Assembly: GCA_013287545.1 (NCBI GenBank)
Contig: JABDDQ010000003.1
Location: 1-33,063, forward strand
Direction of reading: 5' to 3'
DNA from: Bacteroidota bacterium
GTDB lineage: Bacteria; Bacteroidota; Bacteroidia; B-17B0; Aurantibacillaceae
DNA: 33,063 nucleotides
The position numbers and the translations under genes were made by a program. The stretch's first letter is position 1; every line of letters begins with the position of its first letter. The notes beneath the pieces are model-generated. The model was not told where the DNA came from, did not search any database, and saw only the letters and a list, made by a program, of their open reading frames with translations. Shown here piece by piece: positions 13,654 through 22,279 of this stretch.

Positions 13654-14643
13654 ATGAAAAAAATCTCTACGCTCTTATTCGCTGCATCGCTAGGTATATC
13701 AAGCCTTTCATTCGCTCAACAAGATCCGCAGTTTACACAATTTATGTTTTGCAAACAAGCATATAACCCAGCTGTAGTAGGTACAAATGGTAGTATTTGT
13801 TTCGATGCTTTATTCCGCCAACAGTGGGTAAGTTTTCCGGGTGCGCCTAAAACAGGTTTGTTTTGCTTTAATATGAAAGCTGGCAATTTTGGTGTAGGTT
13901 TAACCATTATGAACGACCAAATTGGGTTTCAAAATACCACGATGGCTCGTGCAGCAGGCGCTTACCACATAAATATTGGTACGGGCATTTTAGCTATCGG
14001 TGTTGATGCCGGTATTTATCAATCAAAAATAAACGGTAATTATATAGCTCCTCAAACATTAAATGACCCTTCAATTCCAAGTAATGGAGTAAATAGTGGT
14101 ACGGGTACAAATGCACAAAATTTAAATAAAATGAGTCCCGATTTTGGTGGTGGTATCTATTACACTATTCCAAACAAATTATACATCGGTATATCAAGCA
14201 CTCACTTAAGTGGTGAAACATTACAAGGGTCTGCTGCTCCTTTAAATAACCCAACCAATACTCCTTTAACTTTTGATGTAGCTCGCCACTATTATTTAAT
14301 GGCTGGTTATACATTTGGTTTAAGAAACGGCGAAGATGCCTTACAATCTAACCTATTGGTTAAAACAGATGCGGCTTCTACTCAAATGGACCTTAACCTT
14401 ACTTATATGTACAAAAAAATGATTGGTTTAGGTTTATCGTATCGTTTACAAGATGCAATTGCTCCAATGCTTGTTTATAAAGCACCATTTGGTTTACGTG
14501 TTGCTTATTCTTATGATATTACTACATCTAAAATTAAAGGATATAGCGCAGGAACACATGAAATTTCAATTGGTTATTGCATGAAACCAAAAGATAAAGC
14601 TAAAACGCAAAGTCACTGGAATACAAGGTTCTTTGCTGAATAA
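13654..14643 (+). CDS. PorP/SprF family type IX secretion outer-membrane protein
   Basis: A 329-residue protein with a signal peptide cut after SFAQ (about residue 21). It then has QDPQFTQFMFCKQAYNPAVVGTNG and FRQQWVSFPGAPKT, the hallmark start of the PorP/SprF family, followed by a long amphipathic beta-strand region. These proteins are outer-membrane barrels that act with the PorK/PorN (GldK/GldN) ring and with surface adhesins in T9SS. Its place directly before gldK matches the porPKLMN order known from Porphyromonas. A perfect 8-bp inverted repeat with a 2-base centre (14651-14668) follows the stop, but without a T-run. Confidence 0.92.
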   Translation: MKKISTLLFAASLGISSLSFAQQDPQFTQFMFCKQAYNPAVVGTNGSICFDALFRQQWVSFPGAPKTGLFCFNMKAGNFGVGLTIMNDQIGFQNTTMARAAGAYHINIGTGILAIGVDAGIYQSKINGNYIAPQTLNDPSIPSNGVNSGTGTNAQNLNKMSPDFGGGIYYTIPNKLYIGISSTHLSGETLQGSAAPLNNPTNTPLTFDVARHYYLMAGYTFGLRNGEDALQSNLLVKTDAASTQMDLNLTYMYKKMIGLGLSYRLQDAIAPMLVYKAPFGLRVAYSYDITTSKIKGYSAGTHEISIGYCMKPKDKAKTQSHWNTRFFAE

Positions 14644-14745
14644 TAAAAGGGTATTTTAGTTAAAATACGAAAAAAAATTAAAATAAATGAAACCTTTTTA
14701 AAAAAATTGCGTTAAAGCAAGCTACCGGTGTCTCAAAATAAATAG

Positions 14746-14753
14746 TATTTTTG
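14746..14753 (+). promoter_or_regulatory. -7 box upstream of gldK
   Basis: TATTTTTG is an exact -7 match, 30 bases before the gldK ATG. No -33 TTG at standard distance. It suggests gldKL can be transcribed separately from the porP-like gene. Confidence 0.5.
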
Positions 14754-14783
14754 GCGCGTTGGTAATAAACTAAACAAAAAAGT

Positions 14784-16322
14784 ATGAAAAAACTTTTGAT
14801 TTTGGCCTCTTTTGTTGCAATCGTTACCGGTTGTAATAGTTACAGCGGAGAGCTGGTTGGGGTAAAAGGTAGAGAAGAATGGTTTCAGCCCGATCCTTAC
14901 GGGATGCTTTATATGCCTGTTGGTAGCTACCACATGGGAGCAAACGATGATGAGGTTGGAACAGCACACACTACCAAATCTAAAATAGTTTCTATTCAGG
15001 CATTTTATATGGATGAAACTGAGATTTCTAATAATGAATATCGTCAGTTTGTACATTGGGTTAGAGATTCTATAGCACGCGTATTACTTGCTAATGGTGG
15101 AAACGCAGAAGCAGCAGACTATCAAGTGCCACAAGAAGAGTTTTTAGATATAAACCCACTTTACCGTACAGATAATAACTTAAAAGAGTTTTATATTAAC
15201 TGGGAGAAAAAAATTAAATGGGATTCTCCTGATGATGATTATCGTACGGATTTACAGCCTCTTTATTTACCTGAAATAGAACGTTACTATAACCGTAAAC
15301 AAATTGATGCTCGTAAACTTAATTACGAATATTATCGCATAGATATTAGATTAGCTGCTGCAAAAGGAAATCGTTTTTTACCACAAAAATCTCCTGATGT
15401 TCAGATTAATGAATTTAAAAAAGGTGAATATATTAACGGCGTAACCTTAAACGATGGTACAACCGATAAATTAGGTACAAAAACATCACCGGTTCAGGCA
15501 CCTGATAAAGATGCTAAAACATTAGGTAATTATGAAGTTGAAGACCAAACATCTGTTGGTCAAGGTGCTTACGTTCCTCGTCAAAGAAAAGGTGTTGATA
15601 GAAGCGTATTTATCATTAAAGATGTTCTTAACATATATCCTGATACATTAGCTTGGGTACATGATTTTACATATGCATTTAACGAGCCTATGACCAATAT
15701 GTATTTTTGGCATCCGGCTTACGATGCTTATCCTGTTGTGGGTATCAGTTGGAAACAAGCTCGTGCATTTTGCCAATGGCGTACAAATTTACTTAATGAG
15801 TTCTTAATTGGTAACGGGCAATCTATTGTAAACGATTTTCGTTTGCCAACCGAATCTGAATGGGAATATGCTGCACGTGGTGGAAATGATTTATCTCAAT
15901 ATCCTTGGGGTGGTCCATATATCCGCAACGCACGTGGTTGTTTCTTAGCTAACTTTAAACCAATGCGTGGTTCATACGAAGTGGATGGTGGTTTTCATAC
16001 CGTTCATATTTTCTCATACAATCCTAACGATTGGGGATTATATTGTATGGCAGGTAACGCAGCTGAGTGGACAAGAAATGCTTTTGACGAATCTGCATAC
16101 GATTTTGAACATGACATGAACCCTGATTATGAATACGAAGCACAAGATAACGAAGCAAACGTGTTGAAACGTAAAGTAATTCGCGGTGGTTCTTGGAAAG
16201 ATGTTGGTTTTTATCTTCAAAACAGCAGCAAAACATACGAATATCAAGATACTGCAAAATGTTATATAGGTTTCCGTTGTGTAATGACCTATTTGGGTCG
16301 TGCTAAAGGAGACGATATTTAA
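14784..16322 (+). CDS. gldK: GldK, type IX secretion ring lipoprotein
   Basis: A 512-residue lipoprotein: signal peptide with lipobox VTGC (Cys17), then a formylglycine-generating-enzyme-like (FGE-sulfatase) fold across most of the protein, with MPVGSYHMG near the start, FYMDETEISNNEYRQF, FRLPTESEWEYAARGG and a closing RGGSWKD...YIGFRCV. In GldK/PorK this fold is structural. With GldN it forms the large periplasmic ring under the outer membrane in T9SS. The insertion between the two halves (about residues 110-290) is normal for GldK. gldL follows after 64 bases. Confidence 0.96.
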   Translation: MKKLLILASFVAIVTGCNSYSGELVGVKGREEWFQPDPYGMLYMPVGSYHMGANDDEVGTAHTTKSKIVSIQAFYMDETEISNNEYRQFVHWVRDSIARVLLANGGNAEAADYQVPQEEFLDINPLYRTDNNLKEFYINWEKKIKWDSPDDDYRTDLQPLYLPEIERYYNRKQIDARKLNYEYYRIDIRLAAAKGNRFLPQKSPDVQINEFKKGEYINGVTLNDGTTDKLGTKTSPVQAPDKDAKTLGNYEVEDQTSVGQGAYVPRQRKGVDRSVFIIKDVLNIYPDTLAWVHDFTYAFNEPMTNMYFWHPAYDAYPVVGISWKQARAFCQWRTNLLNEFLIGNGQSIVNDFRLPTESEWEYAARGGNDLSQYPWGGPYIRNARGCFLANFKPMRGSYEVDGGFHTVHIFSYNPNDWGLYCMAGNAAEWTRNAFDESAYDFEHDMNPDYEYEAQDNEANVLKRKVIRGGSWKDVGFYLQNSSKTYEYQDTAKCYIGFRCVMTYLGRAKGDDI

Positions 16323-16386: not shown

Positions 16387-17184
16387 ATGAGCAGCAAGTT
16401 ACCAAAAATTACAGGCTATAAGAAAATTCTTCACATCATAGCCTCGGGGGGAGCGTCAGTAGTTATTGTAGGAGCATTATTTAAAATTATGCACTGGCCA
16501 GGATCGGCTATTATGCTTACAACAGGGCTTTTAATTGAGGCCTTAATATTTTTACTTTATGCCTTTGACGTACCACATGAAGAGTGGGATTGGTCTTTAG
16601 CATATCCTGAATTAGTTAGCATGGGAGCTCATCACGCAGAAGAAGAGGAAGAGCATGGTTCTGTTACACAAAAATTAGATAGCATGCTTGAGCAAGCTAA
16701 AATAGGACCTGAACTTATTGAAAGTTTAGGTAACAGCATGCGTTCATTAAGCGATAATGCAGGTAAAATTGCAGATGTTTCTAACGCTCATTTAGCTACT
16801 AACGAATATGTTGATAGCGTAAAAGGTGCTGCTAAAAATGTAAACAGTCTTTCTGACTCTTACAGCAAAGCTGCTGAATCATTAATGGGTTTATCATTAT
16901 CAAACGAGGCAGGTACATCATTTGGTGACCAATTAAGCAAAGTATCTAAAAATTTATCAGCTCTTAACGCTTCTTACGAACTTCAGTTACAAGGAAGCAA
17001 CGAGCATGTTAAAGCTACATCTCAGTTCTACGATAGTTTAGGTGAGTTAATGAAAAACTTACACGATTCGGTTGATGATACTCGTAAATACAAAACTGAA
17101 ATCTCTTCATTATCAACAAACCTATCTGCTTTAAACAGCATTTATGGTAACATGTTGACTGCTATGAATTATAAAAATCAATAA
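16387..17184 (+). CDS. gldL: GldL, type IX secretion motor protein
   Basis: A 265-residue inner-membrane protein with two transmembrane helices (about residues 16-34 and 40-60) and a long helical cytoplasmic C-terminal part. The second helix carries Glu51 in GLLIEALIFLLYAF, the position of the conserved membrane glutamate thought to take part in proton flow through the GldLM motor. KIMHWPGS between the helices is also a family hallmark. It works with GldM to convert proton motive force into movement for secretion and gliding. A strong terminator-like hairpin follows it before gldM. Confidence 0.96.
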   Translation: MSSKLPKITGYKKILHIIASGGASVVIVGALFKIMHWPGSAIMLTTGLLIEALIFLLYAFDVPHEEWDWSLAYPELVSMGAHHAEEEEEHGSVTQKLDSMLEQAKIGPELIESLGNSMRSLSDNAGKIADVSNAHLATNEYVDSVKGAAKNVNSLSDSYSKAAESLMGLSLSNEAGTSFGDQLSKVSKNLSALNASYELQLQGSNEHVKATSQFYDSLGELMKNLHDSVDDTRKYKTEISSLSTNLSALNSIYGNMLTAMNYKNQ

Positions 17185-17194
17185 AATTTAATCA

Positions 17195-17236
17195 GGAAAG
17201 AAAAAGAAAAACATGTCTCTTTTTCTTTCCTTTTTT
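17195..17236 (+). terminator. Strong intrinsic terminator between gldL and gldM
   Basis: GGAAAGAAAAAGA (17195-17207) is perfectly complementary to TCTTTTTCTTTCC (17218-17230), a 13-bp stem with a 10-base loop, followed directly by six T (17231-17236). It lies 11 bases after the gldL stop and 38 bases before gldM. It has the full form of a rho-independent terminator inside what is normally one T9SS operon, so gldM and gldN would depend on read-through or on a separate promoter. A near match to a -7 box, TATTTTTA at 17243-17250, follows it. Confidence 0.8.
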
Positions 17237-17274
17237 AAAAAATATTTTTACTAATTATTAAAAAAAATTAAACA

Positions 17275-18951
17275 ATGGCAGGCGGAGGAAAAGAAACCCC
17301 AAGGCAAAAGATGATTGGTATGATGTACCTTGTACTTACCGCACTTTTGGCAATGAACGTATCTAAAGATATTTTAAAAGCGTTTGTAACTGTTAACGAA
17401 AGTTTAGAAAGAACTAACAATAACTTTAACAAAAATACGCTTAAGGTAATGGAAGCTTTTGCTGAATCTAAAAAAAGTACACCTCGTGCTGTACCTTATT
17501 ATGAAAAAGCAGTTGTTGCCGAAAAAATGACTAACGAGCTTTATGAGTACATTGAAAAATTAAAGCACGAACTTATTGCACACACTGATGGTAACCCGGG
17601 CGGTGATACATTGCGTTTACGTTATGTTGATGCAAAAGATAACTATGATAAACCAACCCATTTATTAATTGGTGATGATGAAAGAAACCCAAAATCAGGT
17701 GAGTTTACCGCGGTAGAGTTAAAAACAAAAATTACTGCAGTGCACGATAATTTAATGAAAATGGTTGACGACATGCAAAAAAATCCGCAAACCAAATTCC
17801 TTCAAGCTGATTATGAAAGTTTAAAAAAGAAAATCGAGACCATTAAGCCTGATGTTGGTGATGAGAAGGAAGACGGTGTACCTGTAACTTGGGAAATTAT
17901 GAACTTTTATCACTTACCATTAGCCGGTACTATTACCAACCTTACCAAAATGCAAGCTGATTTAAAAAACTTAGAAGCGGAGATTGTTTCTAACTTTTCG
18001 GGTGCTGCAGGTAAAGTAATGGTTAAGTTTGATAAATTGGCTGCTAAAGTTGTTGCTCCTTCAAGCTACATACAATCTGGTCAAAAATATGAAGCTGATA
18101 TATTTATTGCAGCATCTTCTGCTTCTTTTACAAAAGAAAACATGGAGATTGTTGTTAATCCAACCTCTTATGATTCTATAAAAGGAACTATTACGGGTGG
18201 AACTCCAGTTGAGTTAGCCGCTGACGGTACAGGTAAATATTCTACCGGTACACAAGGGCAAGGAGAACAAAAATATAAAGCACTTATTAAATTTAAACAA
18301 CCTACGGGAGATTATAAATTTTATTCTTATGAAGCAAATTATATGGTTGCAGCACCTTCTGTAGCTGTATCTGCTGACCAAATGAATGTGTTTTATGTTG
18401 GTGTACCTAACCCAGTTTCAGTTTCTGCAGCGGGTGTATCTCCAACAGATTTGATAGTAAGCCCTACTGGTGGTGGTGTTAGATCTACCCCAAAGGGTGC
18501 AGGTGTTTATGAATTTAACTTCTCATCTCCTGGTGAGTGTGTTGTTAACGTATCTTCAAAAAATCCCGGAGGTACCGGATCAAAATCACAAGGTTCTAAA
18601 AAATTTCGCGTGAAACCACTTCCTCCACCATTAACAACTGTGGGTGGATTCTCTGGTTCAATTGATATGAAAAAAAGTCAATTATCAACCATTGGTGGTG
18701 TTGGTGCTCAAGCCCCAGGGTTTGATTTTAAAGCAAACTTTGTTGTGCAAGGTTTTGAAATTACTGGTAGCGTAAAAGGGCAAACTAAAATTGCAACTTG
18801 TACCGGTAACAGTTTAAGTGCCGATGCAAAAGCTATCATAATGGGCGCTGGTCCTGGAAGTAAAATATTTATCGATCAGGTTAAGGTTAAAGGCCCAGAC
18901 GGAAAAATGTGCCCTAACGTACCGGGTGTTACTATAAAAGTTAAAGCATAA
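17275..18951 (+). CDS. gldM: GldM, type IX secretion motor/shaft protein
   Basis: A 558-residue protein with the GldM start MAGGGKETPRQKMIGMMYLVL, one transmembrane helix (about residues 13-30) and a large periplasmic part of helical then beta domains ending GVTIKVKA. Two cysteines in the last domain (about residues 506 and 547) may be linked. The membrane helix packs inside the GldL pentamer, and the periplasmic shaft carries torque to the GldKN ring. It begins after the terminator-like hairpin at 17195-17236 and is followed by gldN after 14 bases. Confidence 0.96.
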   Translation: MAGGGKETPRQKMIGMMYLVLTALLAMNVSKDILKAFVTVNESLERTNNNFNKNTLKVMEAFAESKKSTPRAVPYYEKAVVAEKMTNELYEYIEKLKHELIAHTDGNPGGDTLRLRYVDAKDNYDKPTHLLIGDDERNPKSGEFTAVELKTKITAVHDNLMKMVDDMQKNPQTKFLQADYESLKKKIETIKPDVGDEKEDGVPVTWEIMNFYHLPLAGTITNLTKMQADLKNLEAEIVSNFSGAAGKVMVKFDKLAAKVVAPSSYIQSGQKYEADIFIAASSASFTKENMEIVVNPTSYDSIKGTITGGTPVELAADGTGKYSTGTQGQGEQKYKALIKFKQPTGDYKFYSYEANYMVAAPSVAVSADQMNVFYVGVPNPVSVSAAGVSPTDLIVSPTGGGVRSTPKGAGVYEFNFSSPGECVVNVSSKNPGGTGSKSQGSKKFRVKPLPPPLTTVGGFSGSIDMKKSQLSTIGGVGAQAPGFDFKANFVVQGFEITGSVKGQTKIATCTGNSLSADAKAIIMGAGPGSKIFIDQVKVKGPDGKMCPNVPGVTIKVKA

Positions 18952-18965
18952 TTAAATATTTTAAT

Positions 18966-19868
18966 ATGAAAAACACTTCTTTAATAGTTGCTTTTTTGCT
19001 GATGGTATCAGTAAACTTGCTTGCGAAGAGTAATTCTTCGTTAAATATGAGTATTGCTCCAGCTAACACATATACTGTTCCTGGAGGTGTTTTTCAACCT
19101 GGAGATTATTCTGACGGTATCTATACCAAGGAAAACTCTACTAACAGAAGATTTATTCCTTATACTTTTTTACGTGAGGCGGATGTACAATGGGAGAAAA
19201 GAATTTGGAGAAGCATTGATATGCGTGAAAAAATAAATCAACCGCTTTACTTTCCAACCGAATTTGTAACCAGTCGTATTTCATTTTTGCAAGTGGTAAC
19301 AAAGTATATTATGACAGATGAAATTATTGCGTTTAGCGATGATGAATTTTTAATTCCATTGAGACCAAATGATATTAAAACCAAATTACGTAAACAAGGT
19401 GACTCTACTGATCAAGTTTCGTTTGATAAAGATGGTAATGAGGTTAGGGTGAAAATTCTTCCTCCGGCAGATTCTACTTGGATGTATTTAGGTTTTAGAC
19501 AACTTAAGCTTAAAGAAGATTGGTTTTTTGATAAGCAAAAGTCGGTTTTAGAAGTTAGAATATTAGGTTTAGGAATATATACTTTTGACGAAGAAAAGCA
19601 GCTTGAGATACCTCAGTTTTGGGTTTATTTTCCTGCATGCCGACCTTACTTTGCAAAGCATGAAGTTTACAACACCAAAAATGATGCGGAAAGAAGAACT
19701 TATGATGATATATTTTGGAAACGTTTATTTAACAGCTATATTGAGAAAGAGTCAAATGTATACGATAGACGAATTGACTCGTACACTAAAGGCATAGATG
19801 CATTACTTGAGTCGGATAGGATTAAGAATGATATTTTCTTATACGAACATGATATGTGGCATTTCTAA
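18966..19868 (+). CDS. gldN: GldN, type IX secretion ring protein
   Basis: A 300-residue periplasmic protein with a Sec signal peptide (about residues 1-21). Family blocks are YSDGIYTKENSTNRRFIPYT, LREADVQWEKRIWR, IDMREKINQPLYFP and late RRTYDDIFWKRLFNSYIEKESNVYDR. GldN binds GldK to build the periplasmic ring. It sits 14 bases after gldM and ends the T9SS core cluster at a clear terminator. Length is near the usual value for the family. Confidence 0.95.
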   Translation: MKNTSLIVAFLLMVSVNLLAKSNSSLNMSIAPANTYTVPGGVFQPGDYSDGIYTKENSTNRRFIPYTFLREADVQWEKRIWRSIDMREKINQPLYFPTEFVTSRISFLQVVTKYIMTDEIIAFSDDEFLIPLRPNDIKTKLRKQGDSTDQVSFDKDGNEVRVKILPPADSTWMYLGFRQLKLKEDWFFDKQKSVLEVRILGLGIYTFDEEKQLEIPQFWVYFPACRPYFAKHEVYNTKNDAERRTYDDIFWKRLFNSYIEKESNVYDRRIDSYTKGIDALLESDRIKNDIFLYEHDMWHF

Positions 19869-19884
19869 TTGAGACACTTTACTT

Positions 19885-19910
19885 AAACCCGCCTTTTAGG
19901 CGGGTTTTTT
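19885..19910 (+). terminator. Intrinsic terminator after gldN
   Basis: AAACCCGCC pairs perfectly with GGCGGGTTT around a TTTTA loop and runs into T. It closes the T9SS cluster 16 bases after the gldN stop. Confidence 0.9.
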
Positions 19911-19972: not shown

Positions 19973-22279
19973 GTGCGGAATAATTACATAATACTATTTT
20001 TTCTTTTAAGTACCTTAATTTTATTTCATCAAAATATACAGGCTCAAAAGATAGGTGTGGTGCTAAGCGGTGGTGGTGCCGGTGGTGCTTGCCATGTTGG
20101 TGTTTTAAAGGCATTAGAAGAGAATAATATCCCCATTGATTACATAACCGGAACCTCCATTGGGGCCTTAATAGGTGGTTACTATGCGGCAGGTTACAGT
20201 GTAGAGGAAATTGAAAAAATGGTTACTTCTGAAAAATTTATAGAGCTTACAAAAGGATACCTTGAAAAAAAATATCAGTATTATTTTTTTAGAAAAGATG
20301 ATGATGCATCGTGGATTACATTAAAAGTATCATTCGACTCATCATTAGTAACTAATATACCAACTAATGTAATTAACTCGGTACCCATAGATTTTGAAAT
20401 GGTCAGCAATTTTTCAAATGCGGCGGCGGCGGCAACATATAATTTTGATAGTTTATTTATTCCTTTTAGATGTGTAGCTTCTGATATCGAAAACAAGAAA
20501 TCAATCGTATTTAAAGAAGGGAAATTAAATCAAGCTATTAGGGCTTCTATGACCTACCCATTGTATTTAAAACCAATTAATGTAAACGGAAAAATTTTAT
20601 TTGACGGTGGACTTTACAATAACTTTCCGGCAGATGTAATGAATAAAGATTTTAACCCGGATTATATTATTGGTTCGGTAGTTACCAGCGCTAATCCAAA
20701 AGTAGATGAAGAAAATTTATACGCCCAGTTACGCAGTATGCTTATTAATAATCCTGATTTTAGTTTACAAAACAAAACGGGCATCATAATTAAATCGTGG
20801 AGTGATGTTGGTACATTTAATTTTAGTGCTTGCAAAAAGCTTGTTGATAGTGGATATGTAGCCACTGTAAGGCAAATAGATTCTATCCGTAAAAATATTT
20901 CTGTATCAGTAACTAAAGAGCAGGTAAATGAAAAACGAAAAAAATTTAAACGAAAATTTTCAGAAGAAACAGTTATTGAAGAAATTGAGATAGAAGGATT
21001 AAACAAAAAACAACAGTTTTATGTAAAACATGTAATACAAAATAATCCTAAAAAACAATATACGATAGAAAGCATAAAAAAAACTTATTTCAGGCTTGCT
21101 GAAGACCCAAAAATACAATCTATTTTTCCGACACTGGTACTTAACCCACAAACAGGCAAGTATAAACTAAACTTAAAAATAAAGCGTCAAAAAGATTTGT
21201 TTATACAGTTTGGTGGCAACATATCTACACGCCCTATTAGTACAGGATTTGTATCAGCCCAATATAACTATTTTTCAAAATTTGCCATGTCGGTATATGC
21301 TAATGGTTATTTCGGAAGGCTTAATACATCAGGTTTGGGTAAAATCAGATTTGATTTTCCTTCTAAACTACCTATATACATAGAGCCTTTGGTATGTTTT
21401 TCAAGATGGGATTATTATAGAAGCAGCACTTTGTTTTACAATTTTCAACAACCTGCCTATCTTACTCAGAATGATAAATATGGCGAACTAAATATTGGTG
21501 TGCCCATTGGAAACAGATCTAAAGCCGTTATTAGTGGTGGTGTAGCCGAATTGAATAACATTTATTATCAAACAAGTTCGTTTGGTACAAAAGATACTGC
21601 CGACCAAACCAGGTTTCAGTTTATGTATGGGAACCTTGAATATGAATATAATACATTAAATAGAAAATTATACGCATCAGAGGGGGGTTATTTTAGTTTT
21701 AAAACGAGATACGTAAATGGTTTAGAAAGCCTTATACCGGGCACTACAGATAACCAAACAAAACAAATAAAACAGCTTGATGTTCCGCATGAGTGGGTTG
21801 TAGTTAAAATGAAATTTGATGGCTACTTGAAACCATTTAAATTTTTTAAAATTGGTATTTTGGGTGAAGGAGTTTACTCCACCCAAAATTTATTTTTAAA
21901 CTACACCTCCTCAGTGCTTTCTGCACCTGCGTTTATGCCCACACCTGAAAGTAGAACATTATTCCTACCCAACTTTAGGGCATACCAATATGTAGCAGGT
22001 GGAGGAAAAATGATTTTTAATCCCATCCCAAAATTAGATATACGTTTTGAGGCCTATATTTTTCAACCCTATCAGGCAATAAACAATAACCCAACCTATA
22101 CAGCAACGTTGGGTAAAGCCTTTGCTGATAGATACTATGTAGGAATGGCGGCACTTGTATATCATACGGCCTTAGGTCCGCTTAGTTTATCTGTAAACTA
22201 TTACCATGGCGAGGTGCAGCCTTTTACATTTTTAGTGCATTTTGGCTACACGTTGTTTAATAGAAAATCTATTGAGTAA
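19973..22279 (+). CDS. Patatin-like phospholipase with POTRA and outer-membrane barrel (type Vd-like)
   Basis: A 768-residue protein with a signal peptide (about 1-24). A patatin domain follows (about 26-225) with the oxyanion loop SGGGAGG (32-38), nucleophile Ser62 in GTSIG and Asp211 in the DGG motif. Then comes a POTRA-like segment (about 335-410, IEEIEIEGLNKKQQF ... KYKLNLKIKR) and a long C-terminal region of beta strands ending in FGYTLFNRKSIE. This order, patatin-POTRA-barrel, is that of PlpD/FplA-type autotransporters and related Bacteroidota proteins. The active-site pair is intact, so lipase or phospholipase A activity at the outer membrane is likely. The start is GTG at 19973; no nearby ATG preserves the signal peptide. 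It ends by overlapping convergent ribD by 11 bases. Confidence 0.9.
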   Translation: MRNNYIILFFLLSTLILFHQNIQAQKIGVVLSGGGAGGACHVGVLKALEENNIPIDYITGTSIGALIGGYYAAGYSVEEIEKMVTSEKFIELTKGYLEKKYQYYFFRKDDDASWITLKVSFDSSLVTNIPTNVINSVPIDFEMVSNFSNAAAAATYNFDSLFIPFRCVASDIENKKSIVFKEGKLNQAIRASMTYPLYLKPINVNGKILFDGGLYNNFPADVMNKDFNPDYIIGSVVTSANPKVDEENLYAQLRSMLINNPDFSLQNKTGIIIKSWSDVGTFNFSACKKLVDSGYVATVRQIDSIRKNISVSVTKEQVNEKRKKFKRKFSEETVIEEIEIEGLNKKQQFYVKHVIQNNPKKQYTIESIKKTYFRLAEDPKIQSIFPTLVLNPQTGKYKLNLKIKRQKDLFIQFGGNISTRPISTGFVSAQYNYFSKFAMSVYANGYFGRLNTSGLGKIRFDFPSKLPIYIEPLVCFSRWDYYRSSTLFYNFQQPAYLTQNDKYGELNIGVPIGNRSKAVISGGVAELNNIYYQTSSFGTKDTADQTRFQFMYGNLEYEYNTLNRKLYASEGGYFSFKTRYVNGLESLIPGTTDNQTKQIKQLDVPHEWVVVKMKFDGYLKPFKFFKIGILGEGVYSTQNLFLNYTSSVLSAPAFMPTPESRTLFLPNFRAYQYVAGGGKMIFNPIPKLDIRFEAYIFQPYQAINNNPTYTATLGKAFADRYYVGMAALVYHTALGPLSLSVNYYHGEVQPFTFLVHFGYTLFNRKSIE

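Follow-up and report, generated by a model that had tools for sequence, protein, structure and literature searches.

A hairpin kept between gldL and gldM in several genera of a Bacteroidota family, and its possible role as an mRNA boundary

Strong hairpins between two genes of one operon have been described where the products are needed in unequal amounts, with the intercistronic hairpins of puf in Rhodobacter and of malE-malF as the familiar cases. The rplL-rpoB attenuator of E. coli, a leaky terminator inside an operon, is another such element. For E. coli, Dar and Sorek (2018) describe hairpins that protect upstream operon pieces and do so without the uridine tract of terminators (PMC5927463). 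The hairpin between gldL and gldM reported here shares with the puf, malE-malF and E. coli examples its position between two genes of the same operon, the unequal need for their products and a structure that is kept, with the T tract missing in most relatives. It differs from them in that the copy that drew our attention has a T run, in that the genes serve type IX secretion and gliding, and in being known from sequence alone. With the rplL-rpoB attenuator it has in common an internal hairpin with a U run and a possible excess of the upstream products, but at the gldL-gldM junction the T run is nearly confined to one genus. By analogy, we regard the gldL-gldM hairpin as most like the decay barriers of puf and malE, i.e. 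as what appears to be a fresh example of a kind of operon control that is already known. We found no published description of it in the open-licence library searched.

The window, by which we mean the whole 33,063-nucleotide stretch of DNA analysed, belongs to a 2.15 Mb assembly that is about 57% complete, and contains a porP-gldKLMN type IX secretion operon with the hairpin between gldL and gldM. Its features are as follows.

13654-14643: porP (PorP/SprF family), NCBIfam match over cut-off
14784-16322: gldK, NCBIfam match over cut-off
16387-17184, + strand: gldL, encoding the outer pentamer of the motor (GldL/PorL); NCBIfam TIGR03513 at 233 bits (cut-off 68)
17195-17207, + strand: 5′ arm of the hairpin, GGAAAGAAAAAGA, from sequence and fold
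17208-17217, + strand: loop of the hairpin, 10 nt, AAAACATGTC, its letters not conserved among relatives
17218-17230, + strand: 3′ arm of the hairpin, TCTTTTTCTTTCC, from sequence and fold
17231-17236, + strand: six-T run (TTTTTT) behind the stem, a feature of the window's genus that nearly all other relatives lack
17237-17274, + strand: A+T-rich gldM leader, containing TATTTTTA at 17243-17250
17275-18951, + strand: gldM, encoding the inner dimer of the motor (GldM/PorM); NCBIfam TIGR03517 at 293 bits (cut-off 180)
18966-19868, + strand: gldN (GldN/PorN), directly 3′ of gldM, NCBIfam TIGR03523, 177 bits, over cut-off
19885-19907, + strand: canonical terminator hairpin with T tract, 3′ of gldN, at the end of the operon

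Between the gldL stop codon (17182-17184) and the gldM ATG at 17275, the 13-bp stem, 10-base loop and six T of the original prediction were confirmed letter by letter, and TATTTTTA is present where it had been placed. All 13 pairs of the hairpin (17195-17230) are perfect, with A17194 and T17231 as a possible 14th. The region 17180-17260 folds at -16.8 kcal/mol, against a mean of -7.9 (sd 2.6; z -3.4) for dinucleotide shuffles, of which 2 in 200 folded as well. No Rfam family scored over its gathering threshold anywhere in the window, and the stem sequence has a single copy in the 2.15 Mb assembly, for which reason a repeat or mobile hairpin was set aside. Past the gldN terminator, positions 19973-22279 encode a 768-aa protein, listed with a GTG start, which begins like a patatin-like phospholipase and whose NCBIfam matches lie below cut-off.

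The original prediction had proposed looking for the same hairpin in related genomes, and it is there. GldL was detected in 60 of 60 relatives (E 0.001) and, at E 1e-30, in 80 of the family's 87 genomes, and 80 further named loci, many on the same contigs, came from one genome-contig scan. The 188 loci with gldL yielded 185 gldL-gldM spacers, 139 of them distinct; at L027, L100 and L182, gldL is cut by the end of the contig or stretch and gave no spacer. A hairpin was counted where a spacer folds at -8 kcal/mol or better, spacers shorter than 25 nt being scored as hairpin-free. With the genera of the family labelled g1 to g10 and the window's own genus as g1, the hairpin is found in all five readable g1 spacers (two of the seven g1 genomes were unreadable, G005 ending inside gldL and G006 having no GldL match at E 1e-30), as well as in g5 (3/3), g6 (1/1), g7 (14/16) and g9 (6/8). 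It is rare or absent in g2 (3/38), g3 (0/4), g4 (0/1), g8 (0/1) and g10 (0/2), and occurs in 2 of 23 spacers from other families and in 13 of 37 from loci known by contig only. A search at the level of the order added no further family. On a GldL tree of 117 of the 139 rows (18 of the 23 other-family rows were left out and four with unreadable or short gldL were skipped), the hairpin requires 12 changes compared with 36 in shuffles, none of 500 being as low; it has thus been passed down along the tree and has been lost or gained several times. Its absence from 35 of 38 spacers in g2, all four in g3 and 21 of 23 in other families means that the motor does not require it. Two loci of the survey stand out in other respects. 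At L059 (G028:C4:216924-217745), a gldL match of 40% identity crosses 12 stops (8 TGA, 1 TAG and 3 TAA) and is followed by a gldM start, be it through a decayed gene, a frameshift or another cause. G015, a genome of the family, has two gldL-gldM loci, L034 and L039, whose spacers differ and are both hairpin-free.

Within the operon, the hairpin singles out one junction. In g1, g5, g6, g7 and g9 together, 29 of 33 distinct gldL-gldM spacers carry it, compared with 1 of 33 gldK-gldL and 2 of 18 gldM-gldN spacers; over all lineages, the corresponding counts are 47/139, 5/135 and 5/96. Hairpins are also found in 43 of 93 porP-gldK spacers, but these are longer (median 130 nt), and at a z of -2.5 against shuffles in the same five genera, 3 of 22 porP-gldK spacers stand beside 28 of 33 at gldL-gldM. 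Its position varies little, with quartiles of 15-21 nt past the gldL stop and 43-48 nt before the gldM ATG. A hairpin between codirectional genes is in itself not very special: in three genomes of the family, surveyed over their stretches with a simple ORF caller and irrespective of transcription unit, codirectional spacers of 60-150 nt fold at -8 kcal/mol or better in 9 of 25 cases (G010), 9 of 21 (G032) and 23 of 50 (G000), with a T run shorter than four in 6, 4 and 11 of these hairpins, respectively. What is unusual is its persistence at one junction, within a gene set whose products form one complex, while its letters have turned over. The frequency of such hairpins, together with absence from several lineages, would suit a spacer structure without function or an insulator that keeps ribosomes terminating on gldL off gldM; we consider either very unlikely, given that the gldK-gldL and gldM-gldN junctions are mostly hairpin-free and, as regards neutrality, that pairing is kept through letter changes with a bias in the mismatches.

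That pairing outlives the letters is apparent from spacers of the same genus. Stem letters vary between genera with pairing preserved, and within genera we compared arms that were picked and anchored by hand in small groups of close relatives (four plus two of the 16 g7 spacers, four of the eight in g9 and all three in g5); MAFFT alignments of whole spacers lost the register of the stem and were excluded from the pair counts. In the group of four g7 spacers, 60 of 60 cells are paired, with changes on both sides at 5 of 15 positions, and in the group of two, 30 of 30 cells, with a both-sided change at 1 of 15. The g9 spacers have 59 of 60 cells paired and both-sided changes at 3 of 15 positions, the g5 spacers 41 of 42 and 2 of 14. 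The mismatches point the same way. An excess of G-T on the coding strand is expected of an mRNA hairpin but not of a palindrome in the DNA. Among 32 hairpins of the family, a strand-neutral stem finder counted G-T over A-C mismatches at 29:2, in spacers first chosen by plus-strand folding and hence with a slight bias toward G-T; in a thinned set of 23, searched strand-neutrally over the whole spacer, the ratio is 24:3 (p 5e-5). Of the 32 hairpins, 21 fold better on the plus strand and 8 on the minus strand, with 3 ties. The preference for G-T over A-C points to selection on the mRNA, and the comparisons, taken at the level of letters, establish a structure kept on the mRNA strand behind gldL while the letters turn over.

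Part of the original prediction concerned a promoter just behind the hairpin, at which transcription of gldM might restart. Relative to TTTG/TAnnTTTG, which we take to be the housekeeping promoter consensus of Bacteroidota, TATTTTTA matches the -7 box in 7 of 8 positions; the full TAnnTTTG box is not found at this site in the gldM leader of the window. Across the 139 gldL-gldM spacers, TAnnTTTG occurs once where 6.5 occurrences are expected, and the relaxed form TAnnTTT[AG], although present in three of the five g1 spacers, is found 19 times overall against 34.8 expected. The motif not being enriched, the restart promoter was rejected. Together with the alternative of a palindromic regulator site in the DNA, whose stem letters would hardly vary as they do and whose mismatches would hardly be G-T in place of A-C, we judge it extremely unlikely.

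Other promoter-like blocks lie in the operon in relatives. TGTAAC followed after 14-18 nt by CGTT is present in 60 of 93 porP-gldK spacers of relatives (0.1 expected). The window's own porP-gldK spacer (14644-14783) has a variant only, GAAACC (14689-14694) with GCGTT (14709-14713), and the g1 porP-gldK spacers carry TAnnTTTG instead (3 of 3 examined). Between gldL and gldM, TGTAAC with GTAT or CGTT 12-18 nt further on is found in 14 of 38 g2 spacers (0.1 expected; e.g. L084 and L164), and the same TGTAAC-N12-18-(CGTT/GTAT) block in two of eight in g9 (L010 and L011). We take these blocks to be putative promoters, presumably of the kind used by extracytoplasmic sigma factors. In Porphyromonas gingivalis, an extracytoplasmic sigma factor, SigP, activates type IX genes (PMC5005315). 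In gldL-gldM spacers that lack the hairpin, or where it overlaps the block, the TGTAAC element might serve gldMN as an additional promoter, in which case some lineages would promote gldM exactly where others place the hairpin.

The T run sets the window's genus apart. With the terminator past gldN (19885-19907), which served as the yardstick for a genuine one, the window's hairpin shares a stem-loop and T run shortly past a stop codon, but it lies inside a co-acting gene set, has four G-C pairs in its stem compared with six, and belongs to a junction where the T run is not kept. A T run of 5-7 stands behind the hairpin in all five g1 spacers, whereas outside g1 a run of at least four is present in 2 of 42 hairpins (missing in 40) and at least five T within 8 nt in 8 of 42. 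By comparison, the 120 nt past gldN contain a hairpin in 94 of the 96 operons examined, with a T run of at least four in 88 and at least five T in 87. The 88 T runs past gldN indicate that these genomes do use T tracts for termination and, as the T run between gldL and gldM is gone in relatives while the hairpin stays, intrinsic termination is not what was conserved. The terminator proposed in the original prediction therefore holds by form within g1 but is not supported as a general reading, while its other proposal, a boundary element, fares better: the element is conserved at gldL/gldM and appears built to uncouple the expression of the genes before it from that of gldMN. The conserved element itself appears to be an intercistronic mRNA hairpin; its likeness to a terminator is peculiar to the window's genus, in which it may bring about partial termination as well. 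A leaky intrinsic terminator acting alone, at which some RNA polymerase would stop after 17236 and leave less gldMN transcript, has on its side the stem and six T in the window, the T runs throughout the genus and a T run of at least four in 12 of 23 codirectional hairpins of the window's genome. We think it unlikely, since many of the stems without T run outside the genus are equally strong and the four G-C pairs of the window's stem are few.

Our preferred reading, to which we give an even chance, is that the hairpin marks a 3′ boundary past gldL, as a decay barrier in much of the family and probably with leaky termination added in g1. We infer an effect of the hairpin on RNA and protein levels, which would arise as follows. 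In the gldKLMN mRNA, the intercistronic stem-loop would mark a 3′ boundary just past gldL; an endonuclease would cut further downstream, and the hairpin would then halt 3′-to-5′ exonucleases, so that the porP/gldK-gldL piece would outlast that of gldMN, in the manner of puf and malE-malF. The T run added in the window's genus probably makes RNA polymerase stop there part of the time as well. Both routes would provide more message for GldL than for GldM from one operon, toward a GldL:GldM ratio of 5:2. The enzymes that a decay barrier calls for are encoded in the genus, PNPase in seven of seven genomes and RNase E/G in six of seven. Dar and Sorek told protective hairpins of E. coli from terminators by the absence of a uridine tract (PMC5927463). 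Of the 42 hairpins outside the window's genus, 40 have no such tract; it is present in that genus, where it is a feature that a decay barrier does not need.

Outside the family, a related group of 15 loci (L031, L086, L091, L094-L096, L102-L104, L106, L108 and L110-L113) has hairpins at the gldL-gldM junction too. There, a small hairpin directly follows the gldL stop, and in most cases a T-rich stretch comes next and then another hairpin. On their own, the first 20 nt fold better than about 94% or more of the shuffles in 11 of the 15, and both-sided changes were seen at four of five pair positions of the first hairpin in the 12 spacers compared (all 15 were folded; L104, L095 and L096 were left out of the pair count).

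The hairpin could also serve the downstream genes, as a 5′ guard or processing site of the papBA or RNase III type: a cut at or before it would leave a protected gldMN piece and raise GldM and GldN. It keeps its distance to the gldM ATG about as closely as its distance from the gldL stop, and the promoter-like TGTAAC block in some hairpin-free g2 spacers would likewise raise gldM. We nevertheless hold this to be distinctly unlikely, the hairpin being near the gldL stop and some 44 nt from gldM, a spacing that resembles the terminators past gldN (outermost G-C pair mostly 19-28 nt past the stop among those listed).

How a 3′ boundary past gldL would relate to the motor itself is a further question. 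GldLM is a 5:2 motor encoded by one operon (PMC9389320), and a ring built of PorK and PorN contains about 32-36 copies of each (PMC4980022). In the literature searched, we found no explanation for how five GldL per two GldM are obtained from one operon. On the present sequences, it is plausible that the hairpin tunes GldL over GldM. Against a role in stoichiometry, the hairpin would lower gldN too, despite the equal numbers of PorK and PorN in that ring, and g2 and g3, as well as most of the other families, manage without it. Nor does it seem to be a general trait of 5:2 motor operons, a possibility that was set aside in view of the MotA/ExbB-ExbD junctions of the genus: at the four found (L231, L232, L237 and L240; families checked), the spacers of 26-61 nt fold at 0 to -5.9 kcal/mol and hold no comparable hairpin. 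This search covered 20 loci, of which 11 were parsed (seven without such a pair) and nine were not. A broader and more doubtful idea is that RNA sets motor stoichiometry at gldL/gldM by interchangeable means, i.e. a hairpin free in its letters across the family, a leaky terminator in one genus and a promoter-like block in other branches; we lean against it while taking it seriously. A conserved mRNA hairpin at this junction would, for its part, add the type IX secretion and gliding motor of Bacteroidota to the systems with operon-internal RNA barriers.
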